Positions 2,298 through 7,917 of a DNA stretch of 38,407 nt are shown one piece after another. This stretch comes from Sulfurimonas sp. (GTDB lineage Bacteria > Campylobacterota > Campylobacteria > Campylobacterales > Sulfurimonadaceae), in assembly GCA_030654155.1 (NCBI GenBank), contig JAURYA010000026.1:1-38407 (forward strand), read 5' to 3'. The position numbers and the translations under genes are program-made. Positions within the stretch are counted from its first letter, which is position 1. Every line of letters begins with the position of its first letter. Below the pieces are notes generated by a model. The model made no database searches, was not told where the DNA came from, and was given only the letters and a program-made list of their open reading frames with translations.

Positions 2298-3326
2298 ATG
2301 ACACCTACACAAAGAGTACTGGAAGCAATTGAAGAGATTAAAAGAGGGCGTATGGTCATCATGATTGATGATGAGGATAGAGAAAATGAGGGCGATTTGG
2401 TTTACGCTTCTGCTTTTTCAACTCCCGCACATGTTAATTTTATGGCGACTCATGCAAGAGGGCTTATCTGTGTTGCAATTAGTAAAAGTATCGCAACCCG
2501 CCTTGAATTAAATCCGATGGTTAGTTCAAATACATCTTCATATGAAACTGCATTTACGGTTTCTGTTGATGCAAAAAATGCTTTGACCGGCATTTCGGCA
2601 TCTGAGAGAGATGATACCATCAAGATTTTGGCAAACCCTATAAGTCATGCGGATGAGCTTGTAAAGCCGGGGCATATATTTCCTCTAATAGCAAAAGAGG
2701 GTGGTACGCTTATTAGAACAGGACACACTGAGGGTTCGGTTGACCTGTGCCGTTTAGCGGGTCTTAGCGAATCTGCCGTAATATGTGAAATCATCAAAGA
2801 AGACGGCACAATGGCACGACGTGACGACTTAGATGTATTTGGCGAGAAACATACACTTAAAACTGTTTTTATCTCAGATATTGTCGAGTATCGTCTTGCA
2901 AATGAGAGGCTTGTGAGTGAGGTCTGTGTTGAAGATATAGAATTTTTCAGTACAAAAGTTAAAAAATATACATTTGCGGATCACGACAAAATAGAACATA
3001 CCGTAATTGTATTTCATAAGGTAACTTCGATAGCAAATGTAAGAGTTCATAATGTTATACCGGATATCGAATTTCTCTTAAATCAAAAAAAATATAGCAA
3101 CCTGATTGCTTCTATTGAGTACTTAAAGCAAAATAGCGGAGTATTGATTTTTATAAACAAACCTACTCATAACGACAATGCAGCTATTAAAGAGTTTGGA
3201 ATCGGCGCGCAGATACTAAAATCTTTTGGAGTTTCAAAAATGAATCTTATCTCTTCACTTAGCCATACCGAGTTTGTAGGTCTTAGCGGTTTTGGGCTAG
3301 AGATTAACGAAGTTATAAATATCTAA
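2298..3326 (+). CDS. ribB: 3,4-dihydroxy-2-butanone 4-phosphate synthase with GTP-cyclohydrolase-II-like tail
   Basis: This enzyme makes the four-carbon unit of riboflavin from ribulose 5-phosphate. Residues 1 to about 200 form the RibB domain, with the metal and substrate motifs DDEDRENEGDL near residue 24 and RTGHTEGSVDLCRLAGL near 139. Residues from about 205 to 342 resemble the C-terminal half of RibBA in length and fold pattern. They lack the zinc-binding cysteines and the arginine-rich active site expected of GTP cyclohydrolase II. I infer that only the RibB half is active and that a separate RibA exists elsewhere, as in related RibBA-like proteins of this phylum. Start: ATG at 2298 behind AAGAAG. 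The flavin theme continues in the next gene, apbE, 15 bases downstream. Confidence 0.92.
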   Translation: MTPTQRVLEAIEEIKRGRMVIMIDDEDRENEGDLVYASAFSTPAHVNFMATHARGLICVAISKSIATRLELNPMVSSNTSSYETAFTVSVDAKNALTGISASERDDTIKILANPISHADELVKPGHIFPLIAKEGGTLIRTGHTEGSVDLCRLAGLSESAVICEIIKEDGTMARRDDLDVFGEKHTLKTVFISDIVEYRLANERLVSEVCVEDIEFFSTKVKKYTFADHDKIEHTVIVFHKVTSIANVRVHNVIPDIEFLLNQKKYSNLIASIEYLKQNSGVLIFINKPTHNDNAAIKEFGIGAQILKSFGVSKMNLISSLSHTEFVGLSGFGLEINEVINI

Positions 3327-3341
3327 TAAAATATCTAAAAT

Positions 3342-4310
3342 TTGAAAATATTAATCCTCTTTTTATCTCTGTTTTGGCTTCTAGAGGCCAAAATGGTATC
3401 ACGAACACAAGTAATTATGTCTACTTTTATAACTATCTCCGTAGATGAAAAGAACGCAAATCTCATAACTGACGGGTTTGATATTATAAAAAATATTGAG
3501 ATGTCACTCTCTTCATACAATCCAAAAGCCAGAATATATTTGTTAAATAAAAATCTACATGTAGAAGTTGACGATAATGTTTACGAATCGCTTAGTTTGT
3601 GTAAAAAGTATTACGCCGCAACGGACGGATATTTTGATATTACGGTAGGCTCGATAACAAAAGATTTGTATGGATTTGGAGAGAGCGAGAGGGTCGCTAC
3701 TCCTCTTGAGCTTCAGGATGCAAAAGTTGATATTGACGGTTTGCGTTTTAATGAAAAAGAGGCTTTTATAGATAAAGGCATAAAGGTTGATTTGGGTGGA
3801 ATGGGAAAAGGCTTTGCTGTAGATAAAGTCGCAGACTATTATAAGAGCAAAGGCGTTAATAGTGCCGTAATTTCTGCAAGTGGAGATATACGATGTTTAT
3901 CAGTATGCAAGATGGATGTTCAAGATCCATTTGTTGAAGATGGCTCTTTACTCTCTTTTGAAACTACAAAAGATGATTTAGGCATAACGACAAGCGGAAA
4001 CTACAACAGATATGTTGAATCTACAAAAAACAATCATCTTATAGACCCAAAAGCTAAAAAACCGCAAACTTCCTTTATCTCCATAACGCTCATTGGCGAG
4101 CTCTCTAGCAGTGATTTGGATGCTTATGCTACTGCTGCGAGTGTTATGCCTACAAAGAAGACTTATGAGTTTTTAGACGCTCTTGAAGTAGGTTATATTA
4201 TCATGCAAAGCGATGAAGAGATTGTTATAAGTAAAAACATAGCTAAATATGCAAAAAACTTAACTGTAAGTGATACTTTGAAAAAGCAACCAAGAGATAT
4301 AAAGAAGTAG
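3342..4310 (+). CDS. apbE: FAD:protein FMN transferase (ApbE family), exported
   Basis: ApbE takes FMN from FAD and links it covalently to a threonine of target proteins outside the cytoplasm. Seen: a TTG start and a short signal peptide (MKILILFLSLFWLLEAKM). Then come family motifs DLGGMGKGFAVDKV near residue 150, SASGDIRC near 178, GITTSGNYNRY near 212, HLIDPK near 233 and DAYATAASVM near 260. The length of 322 residues is normal. It begins 15 bases after ribB in the same direction, so the two flavin genes may be co-transcribed. Its last 51 bases overlap the end of a convergent membrane-protein gene. The obvious local substrate is the FMN-binding protein encoded at 5163-5690, which carries the ApbE target motif. 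No strong ribosome site precedes the TTG, so the start is less certain than the family. Confidence 0.92.
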   Translation: MKILILFLSLFWLLEAKMVSRTQVIMSTFITISVDEKNANLITDGFDIIKNIEMSLSSYNPKARIYLLNKNLHVEVDDNVYESLSLCKKYYAATDGYFDITVGSITKDLYGFGESERVATPLELQDAKVDIDGLRFNEKEAFIDKGIKVDLGGMGKGFAVDKVADYYKSKGVNSAVISASGDIRCLSVCKMDVQDPFVEDGSLLSFETTKDDLGITTSGNYNRYVESTKNNHLIDPKAKKPQTSFISITLIGELSSSDLDAYATAASVMPTKKTYEFLDALEVGYIIMQSDEEIVISKNIAKYAKNLTVSDTLKKQPRDIKK

Positions 4311-4706
4311 AGCCAAAAAAGTAAAAAATGAGAATAGTTTCATATATGCAAAGAACTCAAATCCGCCGATAATCATAAACGGCGTAAAAATCTCAAGAAG
4401 TGCGACGATAAAAGCGGCATAGACCAAAAGAGTTATATTTTCTTTGTATCTCAAATCAGCAAAGACCAAAAAGTGCAAAAGCACCATCGCAAAAAGCCCA
4501 AAGACAAAAATGTGAGGCAATACTATCTTTAAAATCCCGCCGGCACTCTGAGCAGTAATAAATTTCTCTTCATTGCCAGTGTAGTACTCCAAAACCCCAC
4601 TAAAGCTAAAGCCTATTTTGTGCTCAAACAGCATAAGCGCACTGACAATCAAAAGCAGCGAAAAAGCCAGATAGTAGAGTATTGAGAGCTTATACGCTTC
4701 TTGCAT
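4260..4706 (-). CDS. Small four-helix membrane protein with membrane histidines
   Basis: I do not recognise the family. The 148-residue protein has about four predicted membrane helices (roughly 10-27, 58-84, 91-113, 117-145). Histidines stand at 29, 65 and 78; H65 and H78 fall inside the second helix. Such histidines are compatible with b-type haem binding, but no cytochrome b motif is definite. The ATG at 4706 follows GGAAG and overlaps the end of the upstream membrane-protein gene by 17 bases, so the two are translationally linked. It is the last gene of the leftward FMN-binding-protein operon, and its 3' end runs 51 bases into the convergent apbE. A likely role is as a membrane partner passing electrons to or from the flavoprotein; this is inference from context. 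Confidence 0.75.
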   Translation of the reverse strand: MQEAYKLSILYYLAFSLLLIVSALMLFEHKIGFSFSGVLEYYTGNEEKFITAQSAGGILKIVLPHIFVFGLFAMVLLHFLVFADLRYKENITLLVYAAFIVALLEIFTPFMIIGGFEFFAYMKLFSFFTFLALLLYISWLLFQSITYS

Positions 4707-5163
4707 TTAACTTCCAAAAAGAGTAAAAAATCATATAAATAGCCACAAGATGCCAGAGAAAATAGCTAATTACATAGATATCTATAAAAAACTTTGAGGT
4801 ATAAAAAGCCAAAGGAAGCGAGAAAAGCGATATGAGAGCGCTAATCATAAGAGCGTTTGTGATGATATTTCTGCTTCTTTTTGCAACCCTTATAAAAACC
4901 GCGCTGAGAGTTAGCAGAATCATCATGATAAAGAAAATCTGAGTATGCCAAAACTCTAAAAAAGAAGATTCATTTATAGGGTCTATATATGCCTCTTCAC
5001 TCCCAAACAGCGTGGAACTTACAGCATCTGCGGATATCCCAAAACTAGATTTCATAACAAAAATATCCGATACGATATACAGGAGTATAAAAAAAAGAAA
5101 GCCTTTTAAAATAAGGCTCATAGCGCTATCTTTTTGAAGATTTTTGATTACTGTAAATTTCAC
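4690..5163 (-). CDS. Small four-helix membrane protein, partner of the FMN-binding protein
   Basis: No family is recognised. The 157-residue protein has a positively charged N-terminus and about four membrane helices (roughly 17-36, 70-91, 98-120, 126-150). Histidines H73 (FWHTQ) and H138 (LWHLV) lie in the second and fourth helices, a spacing that could allow two-histidine haem ligation. The start is GTG at 5163, whose last base is shared with the TAG stop of the FMN-binding-protein gene; AAGG in that gene's end serves as ribosome site. Together with the following gene it looks like a two-subunit membrane unit dedicated to the exported flavoprotein. The haem proposal rests only on histidine placement. 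Confidence 0.75.
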   Translation of the reverse strand: MKFTVIKNLQKDSAMSLILKGFLFFILLYIVSDIFVMKSSFGISADAVSSTLFGSEEAYIDPINESSFLEFWHTQIFFIMMILLTLSAVFIRVAKRSRNIITNALMISALISLFSLPLAFYTSKFFIDIYVISYFLWHLVAIYMIFYSFWKLNARSV

Positions 5164-5690
5164 TATTTGCCTTTTAAAACTTCATTATAAAGGGCAAAAG
5201 CAATTTTTGAGCCGTCGACAAAACTTTTAGCACTTAGTGTTGCACCGGTTATGGTTGGAATATCTTTAGAGAGATTTAGTGGCGTTTGGGTTTTTACATT
5301 CTCAAATTGTGATATCCACTTTTTTGAAGGTATATACTCCATAGGTTCGTTGAAGGCTATAATCTCCATGCCTTTTAAAACAGAGTCTGTTGAGATTAAG
5401 TAGAGAACAACACCGTTTTTTGAGCGTATTTTTTTGTTGATTAAAATCCCGTAACCAATAATTTTGCCGTTTTGCTCGGCTTTAAACACTTTAAAAATAT
5501 TACTTTCAAGTTTTACATTCGACTCATCTTGAATTTTTTTTGCCTGAATGTTTGTCAATAAAATATTATCTTCGCTTATTTTACTTTTTGCTCCATAGCT
5601 TTGATTCATAGCATCAATTGGTGAAATAAGCATTTTGGCACTCAGGGGAAGTGCCAAAAAAATAAGAAGATATAGTAAAAGTTGTTTCAT
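5163..5690 (-). CDS. Exported FMN-binding domain protein (ApbE target)
   Basis: The 175-residue protein has a signal peptide (MKQLLLYLLIFLALPLSA) and one FMN-binding domain of the type found in NqrC, RnfG and many periplasmic reductases. The sequence DIPTITGATLSAKSF contains the flavinylation motif (S/T)GAT-x-(S/T), so Thr151 is the predicted covalent FMN site. A longer frame extends upstream to 5849, but the ATG at 5690 follows AGGAG and starts exactly at the signal peptide. The gene leads a tightly packed operon with two membrane proteins and has its own near-consensus promoter. The porin gene lies upstream on the same strand and apbE at the other end. It probably carries electrons in the periplasm; the final acceptor is unknown. 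Confidence 0.88.
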   Translation of the reverse strand: MKQLLLYLLIFLALPLSAKMLISPIDAMNQSYGAKSKISEDNILLTNIQAKKIQDESNVKLESNIFKVFKAEQNGKIIGYGILINKKIRSKNGVVLYLISTDSVLKGMEIIAFNEPMEYIPSKKWISQFENVKTQTPLNLSKDIPTITGATLSAKSFVDGSKIAFALYNEVLKGK

Positions 5691-5717
5691 AATAAGAAGT
5701 GCTCCTAAGTTTTGCGG

Positions 5718-5746
5718 ATTGTATAAAATAAATTTTTTTTTGTCAA
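5718..5746 (-). promoter_or_regulatory. Near-consensus promoter before the FMN-binding-protein operon
   Basis: On the minus strand TTGACA (5746-5741) and TACAAT (5723-5718) are separated by 17 bases, with transcription expected to start near 5711, about 21 bases before the ATG. A second TTGACA lies 13 bases further upstream (5759-5754). The operon may therefore be expressed independently of the porin. Confidence 0.7.
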
Positions 5747-5757
5747 TGAACTTTGTC

Positions 5758-5781
5758 AATAAGAGCAAAAGAGCTCTTATT
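5758..5781 (-). terminator. Hairpin directly after the porin stop codon
   Basis: A perfect 9-base inverted repeat, AATAAGAGC and GCTCTTATT, flanks a 6-base loop and touches the porin stop codon at 5782. In the porin direction no T-run follows, so it may be a weak terminator or an mRNA 3'-end stabiliser separating porin from the FMN operon. Confidence 0.5.
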
Positions 5782-7026
5782 TTAAAAAATAAATCCCATA
5801 GAGAGGCTGAAAGTATCAGAATCAACTCCGCCTTGGCTCTGCATCGCATAGTCGGCTTTTAGAACAACCTGTTCATGCGGGAAGTAGTTTATGCCAAATG
5901 TCGTTGTGTCAATAGAATCAAGCGAACTTCCGTCTGTTTTTTTATCGGCACTGTTGATGCTCTCAAATTGAACAAAAATAGGTAATTTATTGCCTGATGA
6001 ACTTAAAGTTAAAAGGTCATAGCTAAGGTTTAAATAGCCGCCCTTTGCTTTGGTTTGAGACGGTAGTGTTGCGCTTGGAGTCAGATCCTCTGCATCTGAG
6101 CGACGAGCCTCGGCATATGTCCCGTATGCTCTAAATCCTTTTATTTTGTAGTCTGCATGAATATCGAACATATTTATATTTGAGTCCATATAAGCCGAAG
6201 CACCTGCCAAAAGACCGTTAATGTCTGTATAATCTAGCCTTGCTACAAAACCTAGTTTTGGGTCGCTGTTTGTAAACGAGCCGCCACGTGCGTTTCTTAA
6301 CCAGCTTGTATCACTGTCTATTGTCGGATTTAGTGCGGTAACTCCTGCAACTTTATACTCCAACCCTTCAAAAACATCTCCGTAAACCATTACGCCGCTC
6401 TCATGCCAAGTCGTAGGAATTATCTGTTTTGCCGTGTTTGGTCTTTGAACGGTTGTAAAAAGCGTCGGCTCATGTCTTTCGTTTATAAGTCCCATCGGCA
6501 TTAACATGTTACCGACCCTGATATTTGCATTTTCGTTGATTAGAAAGTCAAGATAAATGAACTCAACTATTACTTCTCCGCCCTCTGCAGTGCCGCCGTC
6601 ATTTGCCACTCCGCCGTGTTCAAATTCAAGCTCTACGTTCAGAAGGATATTGTCAGTAAACTTATAACCTATATATGGAACAAATCTATATACGTCAACT
6701 TTAGAGCTGTTTGAGCCGCTCTCTTTATTTGTATGTGAGTAGTACATCTCGCCATAACCGCCGATACTTAAAGGCGATTTTGAGTAGTAGACTTTTGATG
6801 CCGCAGCACCAAGTCCGCTATGAGAAGCTTCATTGTCAACCGTTGTGTAGTTGAAACCTGTCTGCAGATTGCTTGTTTCATCCGTTAAGATTTTAGTCTG
6901 CTCCTTAAGTTGTGTTATCTCTTTTCTAAGCTCCTCTATATCCGAAGCAGTATCCGCTTGCAAAGTGCTTGAGAGCATAATCGCCGCAGCCATGCTTAAA
7001 CCTAGTTTGTTGTTAAATAATTTCAT
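5782..7026 (-). CDS. Outer-membrane porin with N-terminal coiled coil, putatively iron-regulated
   Basis: A 24-residue signal peptide ends at LQADTASD. A short coiled coil (EELRKEITQLKEQTKILTDE) follows, and then a beta-barrel-like sequence of alternating strands ending in FIF, the terminal aromatic typical of BAM substrates. It resembles the phosphate-selective porin O/P superfamily, but the ion it passes cannot be read from the sequence. The ATG at 7026 follows an AGAGGAAAAAAG ribosome site. Two Fur-box-like sites lie within 105 bases upstream, suggesting repression when iron is plentiful. The product could deliver iron species to the flavin and membrane proteins encoded downstream, though that operon also has its own promoter. 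Length 414 residues. Confidence 0.85.
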   Translation of the reverse strand: MKLFNNKLGLSMAAAIMLSSTLQADTASDIEELRKEITQLKEQTKILTDETSNLQTGFNYTTVDNEASHSGLGAAASKVYYSKSPLSIGGYGEMYYSHTNKESGSNSSKVDVYRFVPYIGYKFTDNILLNVELEFEHGGVANDGGTAEGGEVIVEFIYLDFLINENANIRVGNMLMPMGLINERHEPTLFTTVQRPNTAKQIIPTTWHESGVMVYGDVFEGLEYKVAGVTALNPTIDSDTSWLRNARGGSFTNSDPKLGFVARLDYTDINGLLAGASAYMDSNINMFDIHADYKIKGFRAYGTYAEARRSDAEDLTPSATLPSQTKAKGGYLNLSYDLLTLSSSGNKLPIFVQFESINSADKKTDGSSLDSIDTTTFGINYFPHEQVVLKADYAMQSQGGVDSDTFSLSMGFIF

Positions 7027-7043
7027 CTTTTTTCCTCTTAGTT

Positions 7044-7062
7044 GAATTTGATAAGCATTATC
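7044..7062. promoter_or_regulatory. Fur-box-like site, proximal to the porin
   Basis: GAATTTGATAAGCATTATC matches the classical 19-base Fur consensus at 15 positions by my alignment, including the GATAA and ATTATC blocks. It lies 18 bases before the porin ATG, within the probable mRNA leader or promoter. Confidence 0.55.
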
Positions 7063-7109
7063 GTTGCTTTCTGAGTAACATTGTAGTTTATTGTATCTTA
7101 AGCTAATAT

Positions 7110-7128
7110 TAAAATGATAATTATTATC
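7110..7128. promoter_or_regulatory. Fur-box-like site, distal
   Basis: TAAAATGATAATTATTATC matches the 19-base Fur consensus at 16 positions; the core TGATAATTATTATCA is a near-palindrome. It lies 84 bases before the porin ATG and 70 bases before the divergent DUF695-RraB gene, so it could affect either. Confidence 0.65.
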
Positions 7129-7166
7129 AAGTTATTTTACTTTCTGTTTTTTTTGCATAAGTTGGC

Positions 7167-7197: not shown

Positions 7198-7917
7198 ATG
7201 AGAGAATTATTTAGTAGAATTGAAGACGGCGAAGTTATAAATATAGAAGCAGAAGTTGATTTAGATGATGAGCAGGAGTCTTATCCTTGGCTCTTTAGCG
7301 TTTTTATAAAGTTTGGCAATATTGATGAAAATAGTGATAGTTTTGAGAATTTTTTAGAAACGAAAGAGTCTCTTATTATTGCGCTAGAGCATGAAAACAT
7401 AAGCAAATATGTTGGAGCGAGAGTTAAAGATGACTGGAATGAGTTCTACTTTTATGCAAAAAGCGCAAAAAATTTGGAAATTATTGTTACAAAGATGCTC
7501 AAAGAGAGCGGCTACAAGTACGAGAGCGGCGTTGTTAAAGATGCAAAGTGGGATTTTTATCATAAAAATTTATATCCTACCGAGTTAGAGTTTCACAACA
7601 TCGAGAGCGACAAGATAATATTTCTGCTTGAAGAAGAGGGTGATGAGCTCTCAACTCCTAGAGATGTGGAGCATTATGTCTCATTTGATACGGCTACTCA
7701 AAAAGAGAGATTTATCCAAAATGCCCTGACATGCGGATTTAAATTTAAAGACGATATAAGCAGCGAAGAGTTCGAGCACGGCGTGGCTCTGGTTAAGCTG
7801 CATACAGTTGTCAACGAAGATGTTAGAAGAGTTGTAGAGGAGCTTTATGAGCTTGTTAAAAAAGAGCATGGCTACTACGAGGGATGGAGTACGATTTTAA
7901 TAGACACTCAAAGTTAG
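7198..7917 (+). CDS. DUF695 domain plus RraB-like (RNase E regulator B) domain protein
   Basis: The 239-residue cytosolic protein has two parts. Residues 1 to about 130 look like DUF695: acidic start, SYPWLFSVFIKFG, then DDWNEFYFYAKSA. Residues about 140-236 match the RraB fold: HYVSFDTATQKERFIQNAL, GVALVKLHTV and the closing HGYYEGWSTIL. In gammaproteobacteria RraB binds and inhibits RNase E. Campylobacterota studied so far rely mainly on RNase J and RNase Y, so the domain may have another partner here. No signal peptide or catalytic motif is seen. It starts the rightward run, 3 bases ahead of the MFS/PlsC gene, so the two are surely co-transcribed. Confidence 0.82.
   Translation: MRELFSRIEDGEVINIEAEVDLDDEQESYPWLFSVFIKFGNIDENSDSFENFLETKESLIIALEHENISKYVGARVKDDWNEFYFYAKSAKNLEIIVTKMLKESGYKYESGVVKDAKWDFYHKNLYPTELEFHNIESDKIIFLLEEEGDELSTPRDVEHYVSFDTATQKERFIQNALTCGFKFKDDISSEEFEHGVALVKLHTVVNEDVRRVVEELYELVKKEHGYYEGWSTILIDTQS

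Follow-up and report, generated by a model that had tools for sequence, protein, structure and literature searches.

The left part of a 38,407-nucleotide stretch of Sulfurimonas sp. DNA (the window, by which we mean the whole stretch that was analyzed) raises the question of why an outer-membrane porin, an exported FMN-binding protein, and two small membrane proteins should be encoded together behind what look like Fur operators. The initial annotation proposed an iron-responsive electron-transfer chain, for example a ferric or extracellular reductase with a dedicated porin, and all of the genes that it listed are present at approximately the positions it gave. We consider it reasonably probable that the array encodes an envelope-located ferric reductase that serves iron assimilation and is repressed by Fur.

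The array has an operon-like organization on the minus strand in the order porin, FMN-binding protein, MP1, and MP2. The porin (5782–7026, minus strand, 414 aa) is predicted to have an N-terminal coiled coil followed by a beta-barrel, is weakly Porin_O_P-like, and lacks close paralogues elsewhere in the genome. The exported RnfG-like FMN-binding protein (5163–5690, minus strand, 175 aa) begins with the signal peptide MKQLLLYLLIFLALPLSA, which sets the start at 5690; an open reading frame reaching 5849 is an artefact of an in-frame upstream ATG. The two four-helix membrane proteins are MP1 (4690–5163, minus strand, 157 aa), whose closest named matches come from Sulfurimonas MAGs (91–92% identity), and MP2 (4260–4706, minus strand, 148 aa). 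The GTG start of MP1 and the stop of the FMN-protein gene have one base in common, MP1 runs 17 bp into MP2, and MP2 overlaps tail-to-tail by 51 bp with apbE (3342–4310, plus strand), a refinement of the convergent arrangement already described. ApbE is an exported FAD:protein FMN transferase, and the gene upstream on the same strand, originally called ribB, is ribBA (2298–3326, plus strand; DHBP synthase/GTP cyclohydrolase II-like), a candidate source of flavin.

The intergenic region between the porin and FMN-protein genes (5691–5781) contains a hairpin with a 9-bp perfect stem (AATAAGAGC/GCTCTTATT), a possible internal terminator or processing site, together with a strong sigma-70-like promoter sequence, TTGACA-17-TACAAT (5746–5718), matching at 11/12 positions. 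Because these features precede the FMN gene, the FMN-MP1-MP2 genes may also be transcribed independently of Fur from a promoter of their own, besides the Fur-box promoter. The gap at this point is 20 nt or less in just 19 of 51 relatives, and in most relatives it ranges from an overlap up to about 150 bp.

Conservation of the gene set was surveyed across Campylobacterota genomes, and at least seven genera have the array. MP1 homologues are present in 24 of 60 near genomes and, across the phylum, in 23 of 298 genomes and 7 of 58 genera, and around them the order porin-FMN-MP1-MP2 with a convergent apbE is almost constant; the exceptions are a divergent apbE in L104 and a porin on the opposite strand in L100, and no adjacent apbE is seen in L095, L110, and L112. 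By this comparison of sequences the array is a conserved unit. Two subclades of Sulfurimonas carry additional genes at the locus. In one, a cytochrome c gene with five CxxCH motifs (about 367 aa) follows MP2 immediately, in the same orientation (e.g. L069:6174–7277; also L070, L073, L084, L086, L090, and L111), and in the other, an mntP-like manganese exporter gene occupies the MP2/apbE interval (L067:6900–7487, L074:1624–2175, L085:6933–7487, and L089:1729–2283). A further mntP-like gene, judged from sequence only, is located behind apbE in L104 (9325–9876). These clade-specific additions fit with redox and metal homeostasis.

Two Fur-box-like 19-mers had been reported before the porin gene, and they score exactly as claimed, with 16/19 matches at 7110–7128 and 15/19 at 7044–7062. 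A perfect 7-1-7 palindrome, TGATAATTATTATCA (7115–7129, no strand assigned), overlaps the first of these sites and has no second exact match in the draft genome (1.97 Mb). Boxes were scored against the 7-1-7 palindrome TGATAATNATTATCA over 14 positions with a threshold of at least 12/14, and the second box, TGATAAGCATTATCG (7049–7063, no strand assigned), 66 bp from the first and immediately upstream of the porin start, scores 12/14. A conserved Fur-box operator is present at the porin promoter among relatives, with a box at or above threshold in 47 of 49 porin upstreams, a count inflated by relatedness among the loci, versus 3 of 295 other gene starts at the same loci; L095–L110, which come from several families, retain it. 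Paired boxes occur in 39 of the 49 porin upstreams versus 3/295 other starts, mostly with a spacing of 64–72 bp. Since the boxes are conserved before the porins of relatives, a chance origin is very unlikely, and predicted control of the array by Fur is very likely. The Helicobacter pylori holo-Fur operator, a TAATAAT-n-ATTATTA repeat, is near-identical to TGATAATNATTATCA, and the pairing is also alike, with the operator doubled at some promoters, e.g. frpB1 and fecA2 (PMC9696931). Fur control of the convergent genes is unsupported, as the same scan of relatives' loci places a box before ribBA in 0 of 32 upstreams and before apbE in 1 of 57; ribBA is Fur-repressed in H. pylori (PMC9696931). 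On the other side of the operators lies a divergent gene coding for a DUF695-RraB fusion (window 7198–7917), such that the intergenic region with the Fur boxes is common to both, a position kept in some relatives, and this gene may be co-regulated with the array.

The feoAB operon, which served as an internal positive control for Fur-box scoring, has a related organization. On its own contig of this genome (C151:1375–5082, also extracted as L133:1375–5082), feoA-feoB is headed by an OprD-like porin gene, porin405, with 12/14 Fur-like boxes both before porin405 and before feoA. The porin-feoA-feoB arrangement is orthologous in several Sulfurimonas relatives, and a box scoring at least 12/14 precedes the porin405 orthologue in 11 of the 18 members with usable upstream DNA, which suggests that porin405 is a dedicated iron porin. 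With boxes before both the porin-led array and porin405-feoA-feoB, a porin would therefore be paired with an iron system in two instances in the genus. There is no iron transporter gene inside the array itself.

The identities of ApbE (PF02424, E 2.8e-53, Pfam) and RibBA (NCBIfam) are certain by profile, with the adjacency of their genes found mainly within Sulfurimonas. The FMN-binding protein is more divergent, scoring 19.4 bits against FMN_bind (PF04205), below the curated cut-off of 22, but it matches RnfG in NCBIfam (E 8.5e-6) and in the PDB (E 4.9e-5), in support of its being a distant RnfG homologue. The TGATLS flavinylation site noted at the outset is encoded at 5232–5249 (minus strand), providing an exported substrate with the S/TGAT(x)S motif at a locus that also encodes ApbE; the GAT is invariant in 23/23 members, as is the serine two residues later, and ApbE is predicted to attach FMN to T151. 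An apparent absence of PF04205 proteins from the genome proved to be a problem of sensitivity, given the score of this very protein, and a recheck with a tailored alignment finds one FMN-bind protein of this type, the 5163–5690 copy only. The sole ApbE found in the genome is likewise that of the array, and it therefore has one evident client. Across the phylum ApbE is encoded in 23 of 23 genomes with MP1 and in 8 of 275 without it (Fisher p 6e-28, relatedness ignored), and inside the genus the coupling is 10/10 versus 2/8, supporting the view that ApbE and the flavoprotein belong together. As judged from its genes, the array falls within the broad class of extracytosolic electron-transfer systems that depend on ApbE.

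MP1 and MP2 could not initially be matched to a named family, and this holds, as no acceptable match was obtained for the single sequences in Pfam and NCBIfam, nor any in the PDB by sequence profile. The DUF4405, PepSY_TM, and MsrQ (Ferric_reduct) profiles of Pfam have no match at E<=1 among 46 MP1 members, 40 MP2 members, and five distant ones. Among the 86 Sulfurimonas-group homologues there are two haem-related Pfam matches, one MP2 member to cytochrome b561 (PF01292, E 0.0017) and one member to COX7a (E 0.49), and the remaining weak matches are scattered and unrelated. Comparison of the two profiles (hhalign probability 94%, E 2e-7) indicates that MP1 and MP2 are paralogues, and the AlphaFold models of both (mean pLDDT 88 each) have four helices with a common topology, bearing out the earlier description of two overlapping four-helix proteins with histidines in their membrane segments; the charge distribution of MP1 fits an N-in/C-in orientation with the acidic first loop outside. 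Foldseek and VIA-align searches of these models against the PDB return generic helical bundles only, which is uninformative as expected for this fold, and similarities of MP2 to bc1 cytochrome b and of MP1 to haem A synthase (Z about 4–7) fall within helical-bundle noise and are not counted as evidence.

Each protein has a conserved pair of histidines in its membrane helices. MP1 has exactly two histidines, H73 (codon 4945–4947) in the outer part of TM2 and H138 (codon 4750–4752) in TM4, and MP2 has three (29, 65, and 78), of which H65 (codon 4512–4514) and H78 (codon 4473–4475), 13 residues apart in TM2, are conserved. All of 23 divergent members retain H73, H65, and H78, and 21 retain H138, its two losses being one interrupted copy and one replacement by Asn (L110). 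With this Asn, and with WN in place of the WH motif in L092, one putative haem ligand is not absolute. We note that MP1 of L111 (6028–6429) has an in-frame stop just before H138 in an otherwise complete genome. The acidic residue E70 beside H73 is conserved in the Sulfurimonas group only. Conserved membrane histidines beside apbE are the pattern from which DUF4405 was predicted before it was shown to bind haem b, as FezC also does (PMC11334425, mSystems 2024), and by this analogy MP1 and MP2 probably hold haem b between their four conserved histidines.

How these components might work together can be outlined from the gene set and its conservation, the conserved boxes, the flavinylation motif, the coupling to ApbE, the predicted four-helix fold, and the conserved histidines, from which we infer Fur binding, haem binding, the quinol donor, the direction of electron flow, the Fe(III) substrate, and the porin cargo. 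Upon iron shortage, Fur would leave the two operators and the operon would be expressed, with the porin admitting Fe(III) complexes into the periplasm. Electrons drawn from the quinol pool would cross the inner membrane through a heteromeric MP1–MP2 conduit, and T151 of the exported RnfG-like protein would receive its FMN from ApbE. This flavoprotein would accept the electrons of MP1/MP2 and reduce periplasmic Fe(III) to Fe(II), for import by FeoB from the second operon with Fur-like boxes.

A ferric reductase is favored by the conserved array, the paired Fur boxes, the feoAB parallel, the ApbE coupling, the four conserved membrane histidines, and the cytochrome c and mntP genes added in subclades, and by the precedents of Fur-repressed PepSY-type clusters (PMC8238504) and of new haem-b proteins (PMC11334425). 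Counted against it are the lack of a distinctive cytochrome match in the PDB, the H138 replacement in L110 and the WN in L092, the internal promoter-like sequence, the absence of an iron transporter from the array, and the lack of a box before apbE/ribBA. Of the chain first envisaged, the conserved unit, its very likely Fur control, and the link between ApbE and the flavoprotein all stand. Two of the refuting outcomes named at the outset could be checked by sequence, a gene set not conserved in relatives and membrane proteins assignable to a known family, and neither was obtained. Most members encode no electron carrier spanning the outer membrane, which makes a periplasmic assimilatory reductase more likely than an extracellular one.

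Iron as the substrate is not proven by Fur control alone, and MP1/MP2 and the flavoprotein could instead pass electrons to a non-iron periplasmic acceptor (thiols, peroxide, or a terminal reductase) as an iron-sparing or stress chain, taking over from an iron-rich cytochrome pathway during iron shortage. An iron-sparing use of flavinylation has been raised (PMC8238504), and the operon of one subclade includes the five-haem cytochrome c gene, but no iron is spared if MP1/MP2 bind haem, the array has no conserved gene for a reductase or oxidase, and the dedicated porin is better suited to uptake, which leaves this explanation unlikely. The conserved histidines might also be metal ligands, with MP1/MP2 acting as an Fe2+ permease or chaperone and the flavoprotein receiving its electrons from another source. 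The genome already encodes a separate FeoB, the flavoprotein has no other conserved membrane electron donor, E70 is unconserved beyond the Sulfurimonas group, and membrane electron donors are used by the flavinylation systems whose function is known (PMC8238504, PMC11334425); we thus give small weight to a permease, for which the conserved histidines and acidic residues, the Fur control, the lack of a permease gene in the array, and the mntP gene at the locus in one subclade can be cited.

Smallest is the prospect of a conduit for extracellular electron transfer resembling porin-cytochrome complexes, with the FMN protein in or at the barrel reducing extracellular minerals. That the porin is the first gene of the operon and without a close paralogue, and that one subclade has a multihaem cytochrome, would suit such a role, but a 414-aa barrel is small compared with those of the MtrB type, most members lack a carrier at the outer face, and Fur control suits assimilation more than respiration.

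The membrane electron donor is often unidentified in flavinylation gene clusters, and if the ferric-reductase reading is correct, the two-gene MP1/MP2 family with its conserved histidines may supply it in one phylum. It would also give a defined ferric reductase to chemolithoautotrophs living at vents and redoxclines, settings in which iron speciation is important, and predict that some Campylobacterota porins are iron-uptake porins with genes beside those of their inner-membrane partners. More tentatively, and with some doubt, we propose that MP1/MP2 are the founding members of a new class of transmembrane cytochromes, heteromeric and built of four-helix proteins. Together with the flavinylated carrier and its dedicated porin, they could serve many environmental Campylobacterota as the principal ferric reductase under Fur control, a function that may fall to P19-FTR1-type systems in host-associated relatives.

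Literature searches returned no description of this array. The ApbE-dependent class and Fur-repressed flavinylation clusters with PepSY-type membrane partners are already known, and the membrane pair MP1/MP2, the constant company of a porin, and the distribution in Campylobacterota are not described in the literature consulted. The closest parallel is with the PepSY-like clusters, which are Fur-repressed in Shewanella and Caulobacter and for which, as for flavinylation generally, a link with iron assimilation is proposed (Meheust et al. 2021, PMC8238504). Both combine ApbE, an extracytosolic FMN carrier, and a membrane electron donor, presumed here, under Fur repression, predicted here, but the membrane part of the array is a pair of four-helix paralogues with no PepSY profile match, and it has a porin where the PepSY clusters have a TonB receptor.

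MP1 and MP2 resemble DUF4405, FezC, and MsrQ-like proteins in having membrane helices with conserved histidines beside apbE, with haem shown for DUF4405 and FezC and proposed here, but they do not match the profiles of these proteins, and they are two four-helix genes with two conserved histidines each, whereas DUF4405 is one six-helix protein with four. The FMN protein is similar to RnfG and NqrC in its exported FMN-bind domain, S/TGAT motif, and weak but significant RnfG match, and differs in standing alone with a signal peptide in an array without Rnf or Nqr genes. Campylobacter takes up iron through P19-FTR1, a system that in some bacteria has FMN-bind or thioredoxin-like proteins as partners. 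P19 and MP1 never occur together in 298 genomes (P19 in 0/23 with MP1 versus 87/275 without), an exclusion that is only suggestive, being phylogenetically confounded by the concentration of P19 in one family. Although neither P19 nor FTR1 is part of the array, the two are alike as envelope systems with redox partners in the same phylum, devoted to iron acquisition in the one and, putatively, in the other.
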